Of a stretch of DNA of 64,000 nucleotides, positions 13,121 to 23,116 are shown piece by piece. Position numbers and translations under genes: made by a program. The stretch comes from Planctomycetota bacterium (GTDB taxonomy: Bacteria; Planctomycetota; Phycisphaerae; Phycisphaerales; Phycisphaeraceae), in the NCBI GenBank assembly GCA_016350165.1, contig CP066225.1, positions 1,116,001-1,180,000 of the forward strand, in the 5' to 3' direction. The first letter of the stretch is position 1, and every line of letters starts with the position of its first letter. The notes beneath the pieces were generated by a model. That model made no database searches, was not told where the DNA came from, and saw only the letters and a list, made by a program, of their open reading frames with translations.

Positions 13121-14794
13121 TTACTCGATTTGTTGTGTGATTTTGGGCAAGTGTGGTCTGAGGTCGAAGATGCAAAGACTATCGGGTGAACTGTTTTGTT
13201 TGCTGTAATCGTCACGAGAAAGGTGCCACAGTTCGCCTGTTTTGGGATTGAAGATTGGTGTATGGCGATTGGATTGTGAGCCTTTGATGTAGCTGGTGTC
13301 ACAGGTGAATATTGTTTGAGCGATATGATTTTGATCGATTGAGGCAATTTCAAAATCATCAGTTTGTGGCAGCGTGTAATTAAATTGACTAGAGATGTTG
13401 AGTGAAATTTCTGATGTTAGTTTCCAACGCAATTGCCTGTAAGCGGGTTGATGTTCCCATGGGCTGACTGATTCATACTCAGGTAAGCGTTTATTGTCGA
13501 GTAAATTGATGAATTTACTCTCTTCAACAATTTGTTTGTTGTGAACAACTTCAAACCAATGTTTGACGGTACATGACTTAACTTCTCCATCTTCTATGTA
13601 GAACTTGAATTGTTCGCGAAGTTTAGATTTGTGATTTTTAATATTTTGAATTGGCGAGGTTTTAGAACGATTCTGTCTGGTCGGATCATGACCAAAAACC
13701 ATCACTTGCGGATAAATTGTGTTGTTATTGAAGTACTTTACGTTGTATGAGTCATAGAAAAGAATATCGCTACTATGCAAATCTACAATGGCAATACGAG
13801 AGGTTGGCCAATACCAACTTAAAGCATCGATGTCGGTCATATCGATTGCAAGGTATTGGTTATCAATGATATTCCATGCGTTTATTTTGGGAGATGGGAA
13901 CATTGCCTGCCCGTTGTGATGTATTGCAGTGGGTTTATTGCCGTCCCAGAGAACGATCATGCGAGGCATGACGAAGCCGTGAAATGTATCGTCTTTGATT
14001 AGTTCACAGTTGTATTGCCAATAGTCGCCATAGACTGCATAAGCGTTGTATTGCGGTGTAAATGAGAAAGGCAGTTTTGTTGAGGAGATTAATTTACGTT
14101 GGTAGGTATTATTGGTTTTGTAGAGGCCATGAAGCTCCTCGGCGAATGCGGCTTGGAATTTATACCAGAGTTTTTGATTATTAACGCTGCTTGGTCTGAT
14201 TGCGTTGAAGAATTTGTATGCCCATTCACTGTAGTAATGGTGATTGGGAAGTTGCAATGCGAGGCGACGTGTAGAAATCCATGTTTCTTTTTGGTACCAG
14301 TTCGCCCAAGTTTGTTTGTAGATGTCGTAGCCGTTGAGGTAGGAGAGGGATGTGATTGTGATGAAGGAGAGAATGATGAAGGATGCGTAGATTGTTTTTT
14401 TGAATACGTTGCGTCCCATGGTTTTTCGGTTTTTTCCATTTGAGTGTACGTGCTTTGTGCCACATTCGGGGCATGTGTCGGCGGTGTGGTTGCTGAGGTT
14501 GTAGGAACATTTTTTGCAGTAGGGTTCGCCACGTTTAATGTCTTTGAGACGACGTAAACGAATGAAGCGTGAGAGAGCAAAGATGATGAGGAAGAGTGAG
14601 AGGAGGATGGCGATTTCTTGCCAAAAGAAGAGGGTAAAATTGAGGATGTCGAGACCTTTTACTTCGAGACCAATGAGGCCAACGAGGTTGTTGTTTGGAT
14701 CAGTTGGATTAACAGGGGTTGCGTGAAGGAGGACTTCGTTTGTGTCGAAGGTTATTTCGGTGATTGGTTGAAGATGGATTGTTGGTTTTGCCAT
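13121..14794 (-). CDS. Zinc-ribbon membrane protein of unknown function, paralog A
   Basis: I do not recognise a named family. In order the 557 residues hold an N-terminal stretch of about 55 residues, a membrane segment (ILNFTLFFWQEIAILLSLFLIIFAL), an arginine/lysine-rich turn, a zinc ribbon CKKCSYNL…CPECG (near residues 93-111), a second membrane segment (TIYASFIILSFITITSLSYL) and about 400 residues probably outside. The ribbon would be cytoplasmic between two membrane helices. The tail repeats the style of paralog B (GELWHLSRDDY…SLCIFDLRPHL). It starts 4 bases after the paralog B stop, so the two are surely cotranscribed. Confidence 0.8.
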   Translation of the reverse strand: MAKPTIHLQPITEITFDTNEVLLHATPVNPTDPNNNLVGLIGLEVKGLDILNFTLFFWQEIAILLSLFLIIFALSRFIRLRRLKDIKRGEPYCKKCSYNLSNHTADTCPECGTKHVHSNGKNRKTMGRNVFKKTIYASFIILSFITITSLSYLNGYDIYKQTWANWYQKETWISTRRLALQLPNHHYYSEWAYKFFNAIRPSSVNNQKLWYKFQAAFAEELHGLYKTNNTYQRKLISSTKLPFSFTPQYNAYAVYGDYWQYNCELIKDDTFHGFVMPRMIVLWDGNKPTAIHHNGQAMFPSPKINAWNIIDNQYLAIDMTDIDALSWYWPTSRIAIVDLHSSDILFYDSYNVKYFNNNTIYPQVMVFGHDPTRQNRSKTSPIQNIKNHKSKLREQFKFYIEDGEVKSCTVKHWFEVVHNKQIVEESKFINLLDNKRLPEYESVSPWEHQPAYRQLRWKLTSEISLNISSQFNYTLPQTDDFEIASIDQNHIAQTIFTCDTSYIKGSQSNRHTPIFNPKTGELWHLSRDDYSKQNSSPDSLCIFDLRPHLPKITQQIE

Positions 14795-14798
14795 GGCA

Positions 14799-16595
14799 TT
14801 AGTTTTGTTTTAGTGTTTGGTTGAGGTCGAAGAAGATGATGCGTTCTGGTTGATCGGTGTCACGTTCGTAGATGTAGAGCCAATGACGTTTCTTGTCGAT
14901 AGCGGGGTAGTTGGATTTATAGCTTGTTGGGTGACTGAGGATTTTTGAATCGAAAAAGATGCGAGCGTAAAGAGGGTGTTGCAGGTTGTCGTTTCTTTGC
15001 CAATATTGTTTTTTTAGCCAGGGGTTTTCGTATTTGTAAACTGAGAGTAATGGGATTAATTCATCATCATAATTACTTTGGAAATACTGGGAATCGATTT
15101 CGTATTGCAGAGGTTGCTGCCAATTGAGGATGGATTGCGGGTTATGGCGCAGGCCTGAATGAGAGAATAGATATTGTGAAGGGTGCTTGTTTAGTTTGTT
15201 AAGATCGATGAGCTTATCTTGGCCGTGTGTTGTTTCGTACCATTCATGATTGATGTCGTATCTTAAACTCTTGGGTTCTGAGGACGGTTCTGTGGTTATA
15301 TCATCATCGAACGTAAAGAGGGCGTACTTTGAATACCGAAACATGAGTTTGAATGATCTATTGCTTGCAGGTAATTCGAATTGAACGGGGTGCGTTGAAT
15401 ATGGACGTTTATCGAATAATTCTCTAAGAGGTGGTTTGTTTTTCTTTAACTTTACAACATCATCAGCGCCGTGCTGCTGATCTTGATAAATTATGGATTG
15501 ATTGATGAGGTCGAGGACGAGAATGTAGTTAATTGAATAATTATGTGAAACATCACCAATTATCGAACCACGCCATCCATTTGACGCATCACGGATCAAT
15601 AAATATTGGTCATCGAATAATGTAGATGAACTTAATTCTGAAACAAATTGTTTACCTTCGGGGTGGTGGAAAATTTTCAGGTCATTGCCATTGTGCCAAA
15701 CGAAGGAGCTGGCCATTGCAAAACCGATGCCGTTCCCGTGAGAGAAGTTGAGACCCATGTATTGATAAAATCTATGTGGGTTTGAATCCGACATAATTAT
15801 GTCAGGAATTTCTCTGCGTGGTGAGCTTGACAGGTGTTTGCGTGAAAGTGAGTTTGGAGTTTTGTAAACACCCCAAACTTCTTCGTGGGTGAAATCGCTG
15901 TTTTCTTGAAGAGCAATTTGCAGGGGTTTTAGTGGTATGGATTTGAGTAATTGATATGCTTTGCCGCTCCAGATGTTTTGTTCCTTGAAAGTTGGGCCGT
16001 ACCATTTGCGGTTGGTGAGTTGTGAAATTAATTGCGTATCTTGGTTGTATACGAAAGCGGAACGACGTGAACTTTGCCAACGGTATGAGGTGAACCATTT
16101 TTTGTAGCCTGAGGTGTGTGCGCTCGTGAACTCAAGGTATGCGAGTGATGCGAGTGTAAAGAGGGAGAGGGTTAGGAGTGTGTAGTAGAGGGTTGAAGCG
16201 ATTGATTTGTGGCCCATGGTTTTGTGATGTTTGAAGTTAGGGCCAACGTTTTTCTTGCCACACTCGGGGCAGTCGGATGATGTGAAGTTGGTGAGGTTGT
16301 AGCCACAACGCTTGCAGTAGGGTTCGCCTTTGCGGACGTCTTTGAATTTGCGACGTTTGATGAGGCGGTAGATGGTGAAGAAGAGTGTGAGGATGGCGAT
16401 GAGGAAGAAGATTTCCTGCCACCACCAAAATGTGAATGAGAAGAGGTTGAGTTCAGTGACTTGGAGGCCGACGATACCGACGAGGTCGTCTGGGGATTGA
16501 TTGGGGTTCGGGATGGGCATGTAGCTGACGAGTGCTTCGTTTGAATTGAAGATAAGGTCAGCGAAAGGTTCGGCTGTAATAATCTGCTCGTCCAT
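14799..16595 (-). CDS. Zinc-ribbon membrane protein of unknown function, paralog B
   Basis: This is a 598-residue protein with the same plan as its downstream neighbour: N-terminal LVGIVGLQVTELNLFSFTFWWWQEI, membrane segment, KGEPYCKRCGYNL…CPECGKK zinc ribbon, HKTMGHKS, second membrane segment, large extracytoplasmic part ending RHWLYIYERDTDQPERIIFFDL. Shared blocks such as LVGxxGLxVxxLxxxxFTxxxWQEI, RKGEPYCKxCxYNL and KTMGxxxx show tandem duplication. CxxCGYxL…CPECG ribbons are common in planctomycete proteins of unknown role. AAGGG seven bases before ATG 16595 supports the start. Confidence 0.8.
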   Translation of the reverse strand: MDEQIITAEPFADLIFNSNEALVSYMPIPNPNQSPDDLVGIVGLQVTELNLFSFTFWWWQEIFFLIAILTLFFTIYRLIKRRKFKDVRKGEPYCKRCGYNLTNFTSSDCPECGKKNVGPNFKHHKTMGHKSIASTLYYTLLTLSLFTLASLAYLEFTSAHTSGYKKWFTSYRWQSSRRSAFVYNQDTQLISQLTNRKWYGPTFKEQNIWSGKAYQLLKSIPLKPLQIALQENSDFTHEEVWGVYKTPNSLSRKHLSSSPRREIPDIIMSDSNPHRFYQYMGLNFSHGNGIGFAMASSFVWHNGNDLKIFHHPEGKQFVSELSSSTLFDDQYLLIRDASNGWRGSIIGDVSHNYSINYILVLDLINQSIIYQDQQHGADDVVKLKKNKPPLRELFDKRPYSTHPVQFELPASNRSFKLMFRYSKYALFTFDDDITTEPSSEPKSLRYDINHEWYETTHGQDKLIDLNKLNKHPSQYLFSHSGLRHNPQSILNWQQPLQYEIDSQYFQSNYDDELIPLLSVYKYENPWLKKQYWQRNDNLQHPLYARIFFDSKILSHPTSYKSNYPAIDKKRHWLYIYERDTDQPERIIFFDLNQTLKQN

Positions 16596-16998
16596 GAACA
16601 ACCCTTGGAAGAAACGGAAGCGAATGACTGCTGAGTAGTAGTGTTCAGTTAAGTCGTACAGTAATCATGACGCATCATGGAAGATATTGGTTCAGCGAAT
16701 TGTGTGATGTGATGAAAATTTGTTAGCGAGGGGTTAGCTGTGAGTGAATGGGGACGACGTGACTATGTAGGAAATAGGAGCGGTGGAAAAGATGAGGTTA
16801 AGGGATAGAAGATGGGTATGGGATGAAAGGCGATGCACCAAAAGTGTAAGAGGGTTTTGAAAGATTAGCTTTAAAGTATGTGATACTGGGGAGTTAGCGG
16901 GTTTTATAAGGAAAGTATGAGAGGATTTACTTAGTTTTTGGGGTGAGTTGGTAGATTGCGGCTTGTCATGGTGGGTTGTGGTGAGTATCCTGCTCGCT
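16596..16998. other. Divergent intergenic region
   Basis: This is strongly G-rich on the + strand (23 G against 4 C at 16801-16860) and without a coding frame of note. It should contain the promoters of the minus-strand paralog pair and of the + strand methyltransferase, but no clear -35/-10 pair was found. Confidence 0.5.
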
Positions 16999-17601
16999 AT
17001 GGCATTTTCCGACCAGATGAAATTCATGGCTGCATTCATGCGTAATCCGAAGCATGTTGGTGCGATTGCACCGAGTTCGGACGCGTTGGCGAAGGCGATG
17101 GTTGATGATTTACAAGTGTCGCCTGAACAGACGATTGTGGAATTTGGTCCTGGTACGGGGTCATTTACGAAAGCGTTGTACAGGCGATTCACACGTGAGG
17201 GGCAGAAGGGGCATTATTTGGGGATTGAGCGTGATGAATCATTTGTGAATCATTTGCGTGCAAGGTTTCCAGATATGAATTTTGTGCATGGTTCAGCGGA
17301 ATTGTTGCCGCAGTACCATGTGAAGACAGATTTGCCACCGGTTGGTGGGGTTGTCTGTGGTTTGCCATTTGCGTCGCTGCCGATCACTGTGCAGGATTCG
17401 ATTACAAATATGCTGAATGATTTGCTGGTGCCGGGCACGGTTTTCCGTACGTTCCAGTATGTTCATGCGTATCCATTGCCAACAGCTATTCGATTCCGCA
17501 AACGAATGCATGATATGGGATTGAAGATGGCGAAGCGTAAGGTGATTTGGGCGAATGTTCCGCCGGCTTATGTGCTGACGTGGACAAGGGCGGATGCGTA
17601 A
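16999..17601 (+). CDS. PmtA-like methyltransferase (Sinorhizobium type)
   Basis: This 200-residue protein begins MAFSDQMKFMAAFMRNPKHVGAIAPSS and continues with LAKAMVDDL, IVEFGPGTGSFTKAL (motif I) and YLGIERDESFVNHL. The FxRNPxxVGAIAPSS opening is typical of Sinorhizobium-type phospholipid N-methyltransferases, which resemble rRNA adenine dimethylases. It may therefore methylate phosphatidylethanolamine. ATG 16999 gives the family's usual length; in-frame starts further upstream would add a hydrophobic stretch. A terminator follows. Confidence 0.72.
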   Translation: MAFSDQMKFMAAFMRNPKHVGAIAPSSDALAKAMVDDLQVSPEQTIVEFGPGTGSFTKALYRRFTREGQKGHYLGIERDESFVNHLRARFPDMNFVHGSAELLPQYHVKTDLPPVGGVVCGLPFASLPITVQDSITNMLNDLLVPGTVFRTFQYVHAYPLPTAIRFRKRMHDMGLKMAKRKVIWANVPPAYVLTWTRADA

Positions 17602-17620
17602 GTAAAACATGTGATTCATA

Positions 17621-17649
17621 AAGCGACCTATATGAGGTCGCTTTTTTTT
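17621..17649 (+). terminator. Terminator
   Basis: AAGCGACCT, loop ATATG, AGGTCGCTT is followed by a run of T. It sits between the convergent genes ending at 17601 and 17680 and is stronger on the + strand. Confidence 0.88.
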
Positions 17650-17679
17650 ATGCGTGTTGGGTTGTGAATGTGTGGTGAG

Positions 17680-19323
17680 TTAATCGAGGTTGTAGCCGAC
17701 GACGTTTTTGAGGTAGTGAACCTTGAGCCGATCGTTGTAGATGAAAACGACGCGGTTGCCTGAAGTTGAAATGTCGATGGGGAATGGGATCTGATCTTCG
17801 GTTTCGAAAGCCCAGAGGATGTTTGATTTGTCCATTGCTTTTCGTTGTGCGTCGATTCGCTTGCTTTCTTCGATATCTTCTTCGAGGGCTCGAGCTTTGG
17901 GTTTGTTAGCTGCAGCTGGGGCGACTTCTTCTTCGAGGAAAATTTTTGTGCCGGGTGTTGAGGAATACTTGCGAACATCTCTGAAAACTTTGGCAGGCTC
18001 TTCTTTTTGTGTTGTTTCTTGCTTGTTGTTTTGAGCTTCATTTTGTGCTGGTCTGTGTTCTGGCTTATCAGTGTGTTTGAGCTTGGGCGCATTAATGATG
18101 AATGTGAGCTGTTTAGTTGCTTCGTGCATGGGTGTGAGGTACTCATAGTGCACGAGGAAGAAGCGGTGTTTAATTGATTCAATTTTGACTGAGGTAATAT
18201 TGCCGGTGGAGATGCGATTGTTGATGATGTTTGGATCGACGTATGCGAGAAAGTCGAATGGTGGTTCTGCGTTATAGAGATTGATGTAGCTCGTGCGAGG
18301 GTCGTAGACGGCTGTGACATTGGGGACGACAGCAACAGCGAATGAAGGAATCGTATTTTGATTGATGCTGTTGGATTTTGGTGAATCCGATGTTTCTGCA
18401 AAGAATGTATCGAGTGCTGAGAGTTTAAATGGCGCGGGTGTGTTTTCGAAGCCTGCGGATTTATTGAAGACTGTGAAAAAATCTTCTGCTGAGACTTTTT
18501 CCTTGGGATCGTGCGGGTTGATGGGTGATTCGTAAAGGACGGCGGGCTTGTTGAAATTAATTGTGTAGATGGAGAGTGGTGGTTCTTTGGTAACGATCTT
18601 TTTGTGTATTGCGGCTTTGGGGATATCGATCAAGCTGTAATGTGGTGTGTTGTCGAATGTAAGGAGTAGTCGGTTGCCTTCGGTGAAGTCGATGTGGGGG
18701 TTGTCGAGATCGGTGTGCAATGTGAGACGACGGACGAGTTCGGGGACGAAGAGATCGACTGCGTTGTAAATTGAAATAATGAATGTGTTATTTCGTTTGA
18801 CGTAGCCAACTTCATCGGCAGGATCGTCGGTAAAGATGTCTTTGGGAGTGACTTCAGATTCGAGCCCAGCGAAGATGAGTGATTCGGGGGTGTCGATACG
18901 AACGAAAATATTCTTGCCTCGGTTGAGATACCAGGCATATGCGTACTTGTTGATATCTCGGTGATATCTTGGAAGTGGATATCTATTGAAGAGACCCCAG
19001 AATTGGTGTTCACGGAGCTTGTACGTTCGTCTGTAGCTGAGTACTGAGCGGATATTGTTGTTATCCAACTCGAAAATTGTGAGTTCCTTTTGGTCATTGT
19101 GGAACGGGAGATAGGATGGCTTTGCGAAAAGGAGAATGTGATCTTTGTCGTCGGTGGGGAAAGATAACTCTACGATGTCGAATGTGAGCAGTTCGGGAAT
19201 GGGGAGATCAAAAACCTCGATAGGCTGATGTGAAGTTGTGGGTGGTTCAGCATTTAGCTGAACGAGGGAGGAAAGCAAGAGAGCGACAAGGGTTATGAAC
19301 AAATAAAATATGGAATGGCGCAT
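17680..19323 (-). CDS. Secreted protein of unknown function
   Basis: This 547-residue protein begins with a Sec signal peptide (MRHSIFYLFITLVALLLSSLVQLNA). I do not recognise a domain. The first 380 residues contain repeated hydrophobic-strand patterns (HILLFAKPSYL, ELTIFELDN, HYSLIDIP, TSYINLYNA) that could be a beta-propeller, which is only an impression. Residues from about 400 to 500 are charged and low in complexity (NKQETTQKEEPAKV, KARALEEDIEESKRIDAQ). The gene points the same way as the zinc-ribbon paralogs but is separated by the opposite-strand methyltransferase. Confidence 0.75.
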   Translation of the reverse strand: MRHSIFYLFITLVALLLSSLVQLNAEPPTTSHQPIEVFDLPIPELLTFDIVELSFPTDDKDHILLFAKPSYLPFHNDQKELTIFELDNNNIRSVLSYRRTYKLREHQFWGLFNRYPLPRYHRDINKYAYAWYLNRGKNIFVRIDTPESLIFAGLESEVTPKDIFTDDPADEVGYVKRNNTFIISIYNAVDLFVPELVRRLTLHTDLDNPHIDFTEGNRLLLTFDNTPHYSLIDIPKAAIHKKIVTKEPPLSIYTINFNKPAVLYESPINPHDPKEKVSAEDFFTVFNKSAGFENTPAPFKLSALDTFFAETSDSPKSNSINQNTIPSFAVAVVPNVTAVYDPRTSYINLYNAEPPFDFLAYVDPNIINNRISTGNITSVKIESIKHRFFLVHYEYLTPMHEATKQLTFIINAPKLKHTDKPEHRPAQNEAQNNKQETTQKEEPAKVFRDVRKYSSTPGTKIFLEEEVAPAAANKPKARALEEDIEESKRIDAQRKAMDKSNILWAFETEDQIPFPIDISTSGNRVVFIYNDRLKVHYLKNVVGYNLD

Positions 19324-19849: not shown

Positions 19850-22800
19850 ATGATCAAGCGGCAAATTTCAGCTTTAACATGTATCGCTAGTACAGGGCTT
19901 TTGTTGATTGCGCCGCAATTGGCGGAAGTGAGTCATGCGCAGCAGGGTCAGGCTCAGGCGGATCGGTATGAGGGGTTGATTGATGAGGTGGAACAGGAGT
20001 TGGAGAAACCAGCTCAACCGGGGCCGCCACTGAGTGAGTTGGAGGATCGTGGAGCGCCGGCGAACGAACAGGCACGTCAGTTTACTGATTTGGAAGAAGC
20101 AAATACGGGGTTGAAAACTCCAAGTACGCCATTGGGTGATCCGCTGGTGCCGTTTGATGTGAACTTTGCATCACAGAAGGCGAGCCACTGGATTGAAGAT
20201 GGTGCAAAAATGTTGCTGCTAGAGGGGGAAGTGCGGTTTTGGGCAGATGCATATTCGTTCAGAGGTGAGAGTGCGGTTGTTCGAATTGAAACTGAAGAAC
20301 GTCCGGGCAGAACGATTTACCACGTTGCGATTTACTTAGATCATGCGACACCGGGGAGAGTGCCGGGAAATTTGGGCGGGCCGATTGTTGCGAGCGCACG
20401 TAAGTTGCTTGTGACGATGAGTACGTATGGAAAGATAAAGCTTGATACGGACCTGATGTTGCCAAGCGATTTTGGTGTACAGAGTGTACTGACAGAATCA
20501 GCGATGGGTCGGTTTGCAAGATACGATGCGAGTCGATCACAGGTTTTAGCAGGCGGACCGGTGAGACCGGTGTATGGCGCGGAGGTTTTTGCAAGAAGAG
20601 CAATGCGACGCCAAGCGATTGGTGTTGAGATAAGTGAAGCGGATAAAGAGTTTGTTCGCTTGGCTAATGCACAGTTAGAGCGTTCGGTTGTTGAGCAGCC
20701 AGAGCAATTTGGTGGTGGTACGAGAAATGCTGCGGTGGATGAAGATGAAGCAGCGATTTTCCCTGCAAGAGGAACGATCTCGTATGGGCCGGTGGCCGCG
20801 TTTAGTACTGAACCTACAGGGCCAAATGAACGTGCGTTGATGTTCCTGGGTGGGATTGATCTGACGTATGAAGATTTTGATTTAGGCCGAAGTGTATCGC
20901 TTAATGCACAAAAGGCTGTGATCTTTATTGATGAACGTCAGTTGCAAAATAATCAGAACAATGAGATTCAGGGTCAGGGTGGTGAGATGGGTGCCTCTGG
21001 AATTCGAGGGATTTATCTTGAAGATAATGTGATCGTGAGTGATGGTGACTATACGATTAAAGCGCCGCGTATTTATTATGACTTGGTTGAGAACAAGGCA
21101 TTGGTGCTTGATGCGGTAATGTATACATATAATGTTGATTTGAAGTTGCCGTTGTATGTGAGAGCGGATGCTTTGCGTCAAACGAGTGCGACGAGTTGGG
21201 AAGCAGAAGAGGCTCAGTTCACGACGAGTGAATTTGGAGAGCCACACTTTGCGATTGCGTCGAGCAAGATCACGATTGAGAAGCGTGAGAAGGAAGGTCG
21301 ACCGGACCGTTTCTATCTATCTTCGAGGCATAATCGTGGTGAAGTACTGGGAACGCCTTTGGCTTACTTCCCGTATGTAGCGGGCGAGTATTACGATATT
21401 CCATTGCGTGATGTTAGAGGTGGTTTTAACAGTCGATTCGGACCGTTTATTGAGACGGGCTGGGATATGTTCTCGTTGTTTGGTGCGGAGAAACCTGAGA
21501 ACGTGAACATGATCGGTAAGATCGGTTGGTTGGGTGTTCATAATGGAACACTTGGTTTAGATTTGGATTATGACACGGACATGTCATACGGCTTCTTGAA
21601 GAGTTACCTGATTCCACTTGATGGTGGTGAAGATGTGCTTGGTGAAGGTCGTGAGGATGTGAACCGTTCGGGTGATACACGTGGATATGAGACGTGGAAG
21701 CATCGTCAATATTTACCTGAAAATGTAGAGCTTTCGCTGCAGTCATCATGGGTGAGTGATGATACGTTCCTGGAAGAATTCTTCCCGAGGGAAGCGTATG
21801 AGGCTCAGCAATATCAGGCGAGTGGTTATGTGAAGGTCAGCGAAGATAACTGGCTTGTGAGTGGTGTTGCAAAAACGAATTTGAATAGTTTTACACCGCA
21901 ACTGACGTATTTGCAGGCACCGGGGTATACGGTTGATAAATTGCCGGAGATTCAGGCGACGACTGCACCGTTTACGTTGTTTGGCGAGACATTCAACTGG
22001 TATAGTCAGTCGAGTTTGAGCCGAATGAGAGTACGTGCTGGTACGGATACGCCGGGGGACCGTGGTTTTGAGCCTGAAGCGAGTGAAGAAGTCTTTGGCT
22101 TTGGGCCTGACCAGTCGTTCAGAAGTTTTGTTGAGAGTCAGGGCGTACCAACGAATTATGTGTTGCGTGCTGATACGCGACATGAGCTTAGCTTGCCGTT
22201 GGAGATTGCGGATTGGTTGAACTGGACGCCTTACGTTGTGGGTCGTGTAACGGCTTATGACCAGACATTTGAAGATTTCAACAATGGTGAGGGTGCTGAC
22301 GATACGGTTCGTTTGTGGGGCATGGTGGGTTCGAGGTTCGATACTGAGTTCTCGAAGGTATTAACGACGAAGCGAAGTAATATTCTGAATACGAATGGCA
22401 TTCGCCACGTGATTGAACCTTACTTCAACTTCTGGACGGTGAGCACGAATATTGATGATCAGGATTTGCCGATCTTTGATTACGATGTTGAGCGCATTGA
22501 TCAAGGAAGTGGTTTGACGTTTGGCATGAGAAATACGTTCCAAACGAAACGTGGTGGGCCGGGCAGATGGCGTGATGTGGACTGGATTGCTCTGGATACG
22601 CGTTACGTGCAGCGATTTGATCCGGGATTCCCAGATTTTGAAATACCTCGCTACTACAACTACCACCCTGAGTATTCGATTGGTGGAAGCCACTTCTACA
22701 GCAATCTGCAGTGGATGGTGAGTGATAATGTTGCAGTGTTTGGTGAGCTAACCTGGGGTGATCGTCAGGATGAGGTGGTGCAGTGGCGTGTGAATGGCAC

Positions 22801-23116
22801 GATCAACCATACACCACGTTTGCAAACATTTGTGAACTACGAAGAGATTCCAGTACTGAGCAGCAGGTTGCTGACGTATGGGTTCTCGTACCGTATGACG
22901 ACCAAGTACATGGTTCACTTCCTGCAACGATTTGATTTGTCTGAGGACAATTCGAGACGTATTACAGTCATGCTAGACAGGAAGCTGCCACGGTTTGTAT
23001 TCCGCGTGAATGTGATTTTGGACGTTGTTGATAACGAGCAGTTGTTCAATGTGGAGATCATTCCAGACGGCTTGGCTGGTGACACGAATTGGGCGGCAAC
23101 GCCGCTTCGGTTCTGA
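19850..23116 (+). CDS. LptD-like LPS-assembly outer-membrane protein
   Basis: LptD inserts lipopolysaccharide into the outer leaflet of the outer membrane. This 1088-residue protein has a signal peptide ending near SHAQ and an acidic linker. An OstA/LptA-like beta-jellyroll region follows (SHWIEDGAKMLLLEGEVRF, GIYLEDNVIVSDGDYTIKAPRIYYD), then a long barrel region with alternating aromatic strands (YFPYVAGEYYDIPLRDVRGG, HVIEPYFNFW) ending in TPLRF, a terminal phenylalanine as in barrel proteins. It is longer than E. coli LptD (784). The next gene is a PpiD/SurA-like chaperone, the class that folds LptD. ATG 19850 has a poor ribosome site. Confidence 0.75.
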   Translation: MIKRQISALTCIASTGLLLIAPQLAEVSHAQQGQAQADRYEGLIDEVEQELEKPAQPGPPLSELEDRGAPANEQARQFTDLEEANTGLKTPSTPLGDPLVPFDVNFASQKASHWIEDGAKMLLLEGEVRFWADAYSFRGESAVVRIETEERPGRTIYHVAIYLDHATPGRVPGNLGGPIVASARKLLVTMSTYGKIKLDTDLMLPSDFGVQSVLTESAMGRFARYDASRSQVLAGGPVRPVYGAEVFARRAMRRQAIGVEISEADKEFVRLANAQLERSVVEQPEQFGGGTRNAAVDEDEAAIFPARGTISYGPVAAFSTEPTGPNERALMFLGGIDLTYEDFDLGRSVSLNAQKAVIFIDERQLQNNQNNEIQGQGGEMGASGIRGIYLEDNVIVSDGDYTIKAPRIYYDLVENKALVLDAVMYTYNVDLKLPLYVRADALRQTSATSWEAEEAQFTTSEFGEPHFAIASSKITIEKREKEGRPDRFYLSSRHNRGEVLGTPLAYFPYVAGEYYDIPLRDVRGGFNSRFGPFIETGWDMFSLFGAEKPENVNMIGKIGWLGVHNGTLGLDLDYDTDMSYGFLKSYLIPLDGGEDVLGEGREDVNRSGDTRGYETWKHRQYLPENVELSLQSSWVSDDTFLEEFFPREAYEAQQYQASGYVKVSEDNWLVSGVAKTNLNSFTPQLTYLQAPGYTVDKLPEIQATTAPFTLFGETFNWYSQSSLSRMRVRAGTDTPGDRGFEPEASEEVFGFGPDQSFRSFVESQGVPTNYVLRADTRHELSLPLEIADWLNWTPYVVGRVTAYDQTFEDFNNGEGADDTVRLWGMVGSRFDTEFSKVLTTKRSNILNTNGIRHVIEPYFNFWTVSTNIDDQDLPIFDYDVERIDQGSGLTFGMRNTFQTKRGGPGRWRDVDWIALDTRYVQRFDPGFPDFEIPRYYNYHPEYSIGGSHFYSNLQWMVSDNVAVFGELTWGDRQDEVVQWRVNGTINHTPRLQTFVNYEEIPVLSSRLLTYGFSYRMTTKYMVHFLQRFDLSEDNSRRITVMLDRKLPRFVFRVNVILDVVDNEQLFNVEIIPDGLAGDTNWAATPLRF

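Follow-up and report, generated by a model that had tools for sequence, protein, structure and literature searches.

Two adjacent minus-strand genes, termed P1 and P2, in a 64,000-nucleotide stretch of a Planctomycetota bacterium of the order Phycisphaerales (assembly GCA_016350165.1, contig CP066225.1, positions 1,116,001 to 1,180,000; hereafter the window, in whose numbering coordinates are given) encode membrane proteins that we read, with somewhat better than even confidence, as membrane-stapled β-propellers of a family restricted here to one order, each combining an outer binding domain with an inner docking tip. In this reading, the chain would begin outside, where it forms half of blade 1 of the propeller (the first half), cross the membrane via a first transmembrane helix (TM1), make a small cytoplasmic ribbon, come back via a second helix (TM2), and then finish blade 1 and the remaining blades outside. 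The fast-diverging outer propeller would bind a ligand or partner in the envelope, one that varies from paralog to paralog, and the conserved ribbon would serve as the docking tip for a common cytoplasmic partner as well as closing the hairpin. This would make the protein a trans-membrane connector, not an enzyme.

P1 and P2 are strong paralogs, with 34% identity over P1 residues 5–319 (E 4.6e-48), and are sisters with support 1.0 in a FastTree tree of 40 sequences. Their stop-to-start gap is 4 bases (14795–14798). We read them as tandem duplicates within one family. The features of the two genes, drawn from open reading frames (ORFs), hydropathy, alignment and an AlphaFold (AF2) model of P1, are as follows.

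13121..14794, minus strand: P1, 557-residue membrane ribbon protein, long form (ORF; paralog P2)
14648..14779, minus strand: P1 residues 6–49, N-terminal strands on the outside, interpreted as blade 1, first half (AF2)
14552..14623, minus strand: P1 TM1, residues 58–81 (AF2 helix 58–81; hydropathy 60–78)
14459..14518, minus strand: P1 putative zinc ribbon, residues 93–112, CKKCSYNL...CPECG (invariant cysteines; basic flanks)
14336..14413, minus strand: P1 TM2, residues 128–153 (AF2 helix 128–153; hydropathy 135–153)
13124..14335, minus strand: P1 outer domain, residues 154–557 (AF2; VIA structure comparison)
14799..16595, minus strand: P2, 598-residue membrane ribbon protein (ORF from ATG; alignment); a TTG start at 16601 would give 600 residues (ORF analysis)
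16371..16427, minus strand: P2 TM1, residues 57–75 (hydropathy)
16257..16316, minus strand: P2 putative zinc ribbon, residues 94–113, CKRCGYNL...CPECG (motif; alignment)
16134..16211, minus strand: P2 TM2, about residues 129–154 (alignment to P1)
14802..16133, minus strand: P2 outer domain, about residues 155–598 (alignment)

Both proteins share one layout, in which an outer N segment is followed by TM1, a four-cysteine ribbon inside, TM2, and an outer domain of ~400 residues. In P1, a hydropathy helix was found on either side of the ribbon (residues 60–78 and 135–153; threshold, 1.6). In P2, the second helix falls below this threshold and its position was taken from the alignment to P1. The ribbon loop carries 13–14 Lys/Arg and 4 Asp/Glu residues, and is therefore assigned to the cytoplasm by the positive-inside rule. 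The four ribbon cysteines are invariant in 26/26 aligned long-form members, with both CxxC-type knuckles conserved, which indicates that the ribbon did not arise by chance; we regard it as a putative zinc ribbon.

No curated family was reached by P1 or P2. The best Pfam score was 15.9 bits, compared with cut-offs of at least 23.9 (DZR, 15.0 and 15.9 bits against a cut-off of 27.3; Zn_ribbon_ISL3, 15.7 against 25.5), the NCBIfam matches were all below cut-off, and neither database matched a sigma domain. PHROGs gave two weak matches on the P1 ribbon (E 0.0018 and 0.0036), and the PADLOC anti-phage defence models gave no match at E≤0.1 for P1, P2, or S, a 547-residue protein encoded nearby. A sequence-only reading of the locus had described tandem paralogs of 557 and 598 residues, 4 bases apart, with the ribbon inside between two helices, a large outer domain, and no family name. 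The ORFs and their alignment, the hydropathy, the basic loop and the family searches agree with that description, which overlooked the ~50 residues before TM1, a recurrent outer segment in long-form proteins.

The basic flanks, and the fact that zinc ribbons often bind nucleic acids, would also fit a ribbon that tethers DNA or RNA to the membrane. We consider this quite improbable, as the positive-inside rule already accounts for the basic flanks and the matches to ribbon families are all below cut-off.

The fold of the family is seen most clearly in the relative L111 (480 residues), for which an AlphaFold model was also made (predicted local distance difference test (pLDDT), 83.9; predicted template modelling score (pTM), 0.79). 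DSSP assigned strands at residues 10–13, 18–25, and 31–42 and a helix at 43–72 that begins at the end of the last strand; after the ribbon, a helix (115–139), strands 173–183 and 189–197, and further strands to residue 464 follow. Against the Protein Data Bank (PDB), 1883 of 1989 Foldseek matches were at E≤0.001, the top one being the PkwA WD40 domain (3.0e-15). In VIA, L111 matched RbBP5 with Z 26.4 and a root-mean-square deviation (rmsd) of 3.1 over 289 residues of the 313-residue chain, and Gβ with Z 25.3 (289 residues, spanning model residues 1–464). Since the RbBP5 match spans model residues 5 to 467, the N-terminal segment belongs to the propeller in L111. In an assignment that fits seven blades of four strands and was derived from DSSP and the sequence, not from strand pairing in the coordinates, strand 10–13 would be the closing strand of blade 7, strands 18–25 and 31–42 the first two of blade 1, and strands 173–183 and 189–197 its last two. 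This confident model suggests that L111 is a complete seven-bladed WD40-type propeller with blade 1 interrupted by the membrane hairpin.

Other relatives are in line with this model. L118 and L119 have an 'FSPD...VDLW' or '...IDVW' segment right before TM1, which reads as a WD40-like blade, and a 'VDxxxG' segment after TM2. A profile of the outer parts of 14 relatives matched solved propellers (best, 1l0q at 1.7e-17), and Pfam on the same parts found WD40 in 2, PQQ_2 in 2, the WDR5 model in 2, and SGL in 1. The outer parts of relatives from other genera gave weak single-member matches to SGL, PD40, WD40, and other propeller models. The hairpin-in-blade architecture is thus well supported for the family.

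For P1, the AlphaFold model (pLDDT 62.4 and pTM 0.64 overall) has N-terminal strands at residues 6–8, 12–15, 20–27, and 37–49, with the blocks of residues 11–50 at pLDDT 89–91. Strands 215–226 and 231–238, read as the second half of blade 1, lie in blocks with pLDDT 71 (211–220) and 91–92 (221–240). The order of elements is that of L111, namely strands, helix-ribbon-helix, and strands. In VIA, 47 of the 50 listed rows for P1, which we take to be propellers of several kinds, start at residues 1–10 and end at 544–557; the best is the Pan2 WD40 domain (Z 9.9, rmsd 5.0). The hairpin-in-blade insertion in P1 and P2 is therefore described here, on the model, as probable. WD40 and other propeller Pfam models did not match P1 or P2, and no WD40 sequence repeats were detectable. 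The outer parts of the genus members resemble the profile of the relatives only over ~55 residues after TM2. As the outer sequences show no detectable similarity beyond these residues, we infer the fold there, and with it a whole propeller, for P1 and P2.

The family is large in this genome and was found in a single order. Copy numbers and genome counts are lower bounds, as at most 18 (order), 30 (phylum), or 150 (own genome) candidates were scored per genome. The TM1-ribbon-TM2 profile matched at least 122 places in the own genome at E≤1e-3 (150 of 248 candidates scored) and 56 places in the congener (143/143 candidates scored). The whole module was found at E≤4e-27 in at least 13 copies in the own genome and 5 in the congener, the next match being at 2.4e-16. 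P1 and P2 are thus two of at least 13 full-length copies without internal stops, a multiplicity also overlooked in the sequence-only reading. Near 3.19 Mb, six of these copies lie together in a single tandem array (L009, G000:C1:3187000-3206000).

Across the order, at least 40 of 251 genomes (29 of 130 genera) matched the module at E≤1e-12. By a hand count, at least 19 of the 40 have it near full length (a match that starts at or before position 6 of the 116-position model and ends at or after position 104); the others have shorter matches only, partly from a second class without the N segment. In the phylum sample, at least 5 of 149 genomes, own genome included, matched at E≤1e-6, all of them in the same order. 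A contig search gave one locus, from a Phycisphaeraceae metagenome-assembled genome.

Several related loci were seen alongside the full-length copies. The nearest relatives of the array L009 in the congener, L054 and L055, sit at separate places. The own genome also has a fourteenth long-form copy (L138:4314-6046), next in rank, with the two halves of its ribbon in different reading frames; it is either a pseudogene or an assembly error. A second class of long ribbon proteins, often in tandem clusters, has TM1 at or near the N-terminus and lacks the outer N segment (L015, L016, L021, L023, L024, L026, L153, and L155, the last two by motif only); eight such proteins (L015–L026) gave no convincing Pfam match. 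In L156, L158, L161, L162, and L025, tandem clusters encode multi-helix membrane proteins in which the same ribbon is N-terminal, in the middle, or C-terminal.

The proposed role draws on the uneven conservation of the protein. Among 18 genus members (153 pairs), the mean identity is 47.1% in the ribbon segment (the ribbon plus 14 preceding and 16 following residues), compared with 24.7% in the outer domain, 27.0% in the N segment, 33.0% in TM1, and 25.2% in TM2. Only about 50 residues lie between the helices, and Pfam and NCBIfam found no effector domain there. In a neighbor survey of 38 loci and the window (several per genome, some on short contigs; blastp clusters at 1e-6), no family recurred in at least 4 of the 39 stretches besides the ribbon family, which accounts for 48 genes across 36 stretches. 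As the ribbon is the best conserved part and neither an effector domain nor a recurrent neighbor was found, an outer binding domain with an inner docking tip is favored.

The small inner part without an effector domain and the lack of another recurrent neighbor would also be expected if the ribbon only closed the TM hairpin, as a pure structural staple of an outer-face adhesion or scaffold protein without cytoplasmic partner or signalling. This is the main rival explanation, possible if rather doubtful. An insertion between adjacent strands, as inferred from L111, needs close ends, which a small ribbon would give. On the other hand, in the stretches sampled from the own genome the strict ribbon motif occurs in 110 ORF rows; as one row is a truncated P1, this makes at least 109 ORFs, in which the motif also stands before, between, and after multi-helix domains that have no hairpin to close. 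A predicted TM helix lies close by in 102 of the 110 rows, and a tail of at least 180 residues extends beyond the ribbon and its helices in 39; the closeness to TM helices is biased, because the profile used to select these stretches contains the helices. The varied membrane contexts favor a role of its own for the ribbon, within a sample drawn with that profile. We also suggest, tentatively and as a rather unlikely extension, that the CxxCxYxL...CPECG ribbon is a shared address tag by which more than 100 otherwise dissimilar membrane proteins of this bacterium, P1 and P2 included, plug into one cytoplasmic partner or layer.

The following results weigh against the reading of P1 and P2 as propellers with a docking tip. 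Concerning the N segments, a profile comparison with the other blades was not significant (E 0.016, probability score 2.8), and 0 of 39 N segments matched Pfam WD40, one matching another propeller model at 0.036. Concerning the P1 model, residues 351–494 are below pLDDT 50, the VIA Z of 9.9 is modestly above the 7–8 typical of the tool without a clear match, and none of 584 Foldseek matches was at E≤0.001 (best, 1.3e-2). The model is also not independent, because its alignment held relatives with clear propellers. Concerning the outer sequences, the 18 genus members compared with the propeller profile of the relatives gave E 0.011 (probability score 4) in hhalign. In hmmsearch, P1 and P2 gave E 6 and 7.2 against that profile, and only L004 (0.0034, over a short stretch) beat the best of 360 shuffled controls (0.031). 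The profile of the 18 genus members' outer parts found nothing in the PDB at E≤1. Concerning the role, the higher identity of the ribbon may reflect merely a small metal site, and neither a partner nor a ligand emerged. The match of profile A2 with A8 (E 7e-18) involves shared members and was set aside for the genus-only tests, which came out negative; A2 searched against the PDB found 9 entries at E≤1, some of them zinc fingers or ribbon proteins, others propellers.

The lack of detectable resemblance to the propellers of the relatives from ~55 residues past TM2 onward, the empty PDB search, and the low pLDDT at P1 351–494 would be explained if the outer domain of the genus members were not a propeller, the hairpin, N segment and short post-TM2 motif being joined to an unrelated domain. 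We consider this unlikely, given the strands and VIA rows of the P1 model, the similar lengths, the WxxWxS-type motif that follows TM2 in the family consensus (P1 has a degenerate version), and the strands of the second half of blade 1 in the same place.

Two further genes of the locus bear on a possible extracellular partner.

16948..17601, plus strand: methyltransferase ORF, between P2 and S
17680..19323, minus strand: S, 547-residue protein (ORF; hydrophobic leader at the N-terminus)

The closest families to the methyltransferase are the OlsG/PmtA lipid N-methyltransferases, with scores of 77 and 72 bits that stay under the NCBIfam cut-offs. The sequence-only reading had noted S as a secreted protein in the same direction as P1 and P2, which the ORF and its leader bear out, and had proposed that P1 and P2 are a membrane sensor or assembly factor working with it. 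Apart from proximity and the shared strand, the evidence contradicts this partnership, which we consider highly improbable. A sensor or assembly-factor role of P1 and P2 by themselves may still apply; the ~50 inner residues showed no effector domain, and no neighbor besides the family itself recurred. The methyltransferase on the opposite strand, which the sequence-only reading overlooked, makes a single operon unlikely. Of 41 genomes of relatives, 2 contain S, as do 2 of 298 class genomes, in each case the own genome and the congener, whereas at least 19 of the 251 genomes of the order have the near-full module. The co-occurrence with P1 and P2, named as a check in that reading, does not hold either, as the congener has S without their orthologs: its best matches cover only P1 residues 41–170 (E 1.5e-15) and P2 residues 42–175 (E 4.9e-15), both at paralog level. 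The gene order around S is kept there (thioredoxin-like, methyltransferase, PMT-like, DUF1223-like, ..., PmtA-like methyltransferase, S, LptD-like; names assigned by reading the sequences), and the place of P1 and P2 is taken by a symporter-like ORF (sodium-solute, by eye) and a 629-residue ORF, both on the minus strand (L053:5199-8914). S is probably unrelated to P1 and P2.

As to S itself, Pfam gave TumE alone (E 0.85). It was also considered as a propeller relative and rejected (A5 against A8, E 0.18, probability score 0.3; nothing in the PDB at E≤10). Among the genomes searched, S occurs in this genus only, and in both species lies between a PmtA/OlsG-like methyltransferase and an LptD-like gene. 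The latter (19850–23116, plus strand) encodes a 1088-residue protein with a weak LptD_N match (E 0.099, Pfam) and a clear counterpart in the congener. S, divergent to it, is perhaps linked to outer-membrane assembly.

Among known systems, RbBP5, Gβ, and the PkwA WD40 domain share the fold of the L111 outer domain, N-terminal segment included. In contrast to them, L111-type propellers would lie outside the membrane with blade 1 split by TM-ribbon-TM, and P1 and P2 have no detectable WD40 sequence repeats. The TolB, YncE, and BamB-like proteins are likewise envelope propellers, TolB and YncE being among the fold or profile matches of P1, but they are soluble or lipid-anchored and are not known to have a cytoplasmic tip. 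DZR and Zn_Ribbon_1 share the four-cysteine CxxC...CxxC ribbon, whereas P1 and P2 score below the curated cut-offs and have a single ribbon between two TM helices. To our knowledge, there is no known case of a membrane hairpin with a cytoplasmic metal tip inside a propeller blade, and searches of an open-access library turned up no publication that deals with this family or describes a membrane hairpin inserted into a propeller. In the portions consulted of PMC8567305 and PMC8999054, extracytoplasmic function (ECF) sigma factors with WD40-like C-terminal extensions (group ECF57) are presented as an innovation of the Planctomycetes; as described there, they too join a WD40-like propeller to a small regulatory module. 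P1 and P2, unlike ECF57, have no sigma-domain match, and their inner module is a ribbon placed within the propeller sequence.

These results point to a large unnamed expansion of membrane proteins in a bacterial group noted for unusual envelopes. Should the insertion be real, one repeat would join the two sides of the membrane, with the hairpin and its cytoplasmic metal tip set into a propeller blade; if the address tag is true, the ribbon would be a planctomycete-specific modular link from envelope to cytoplasm.

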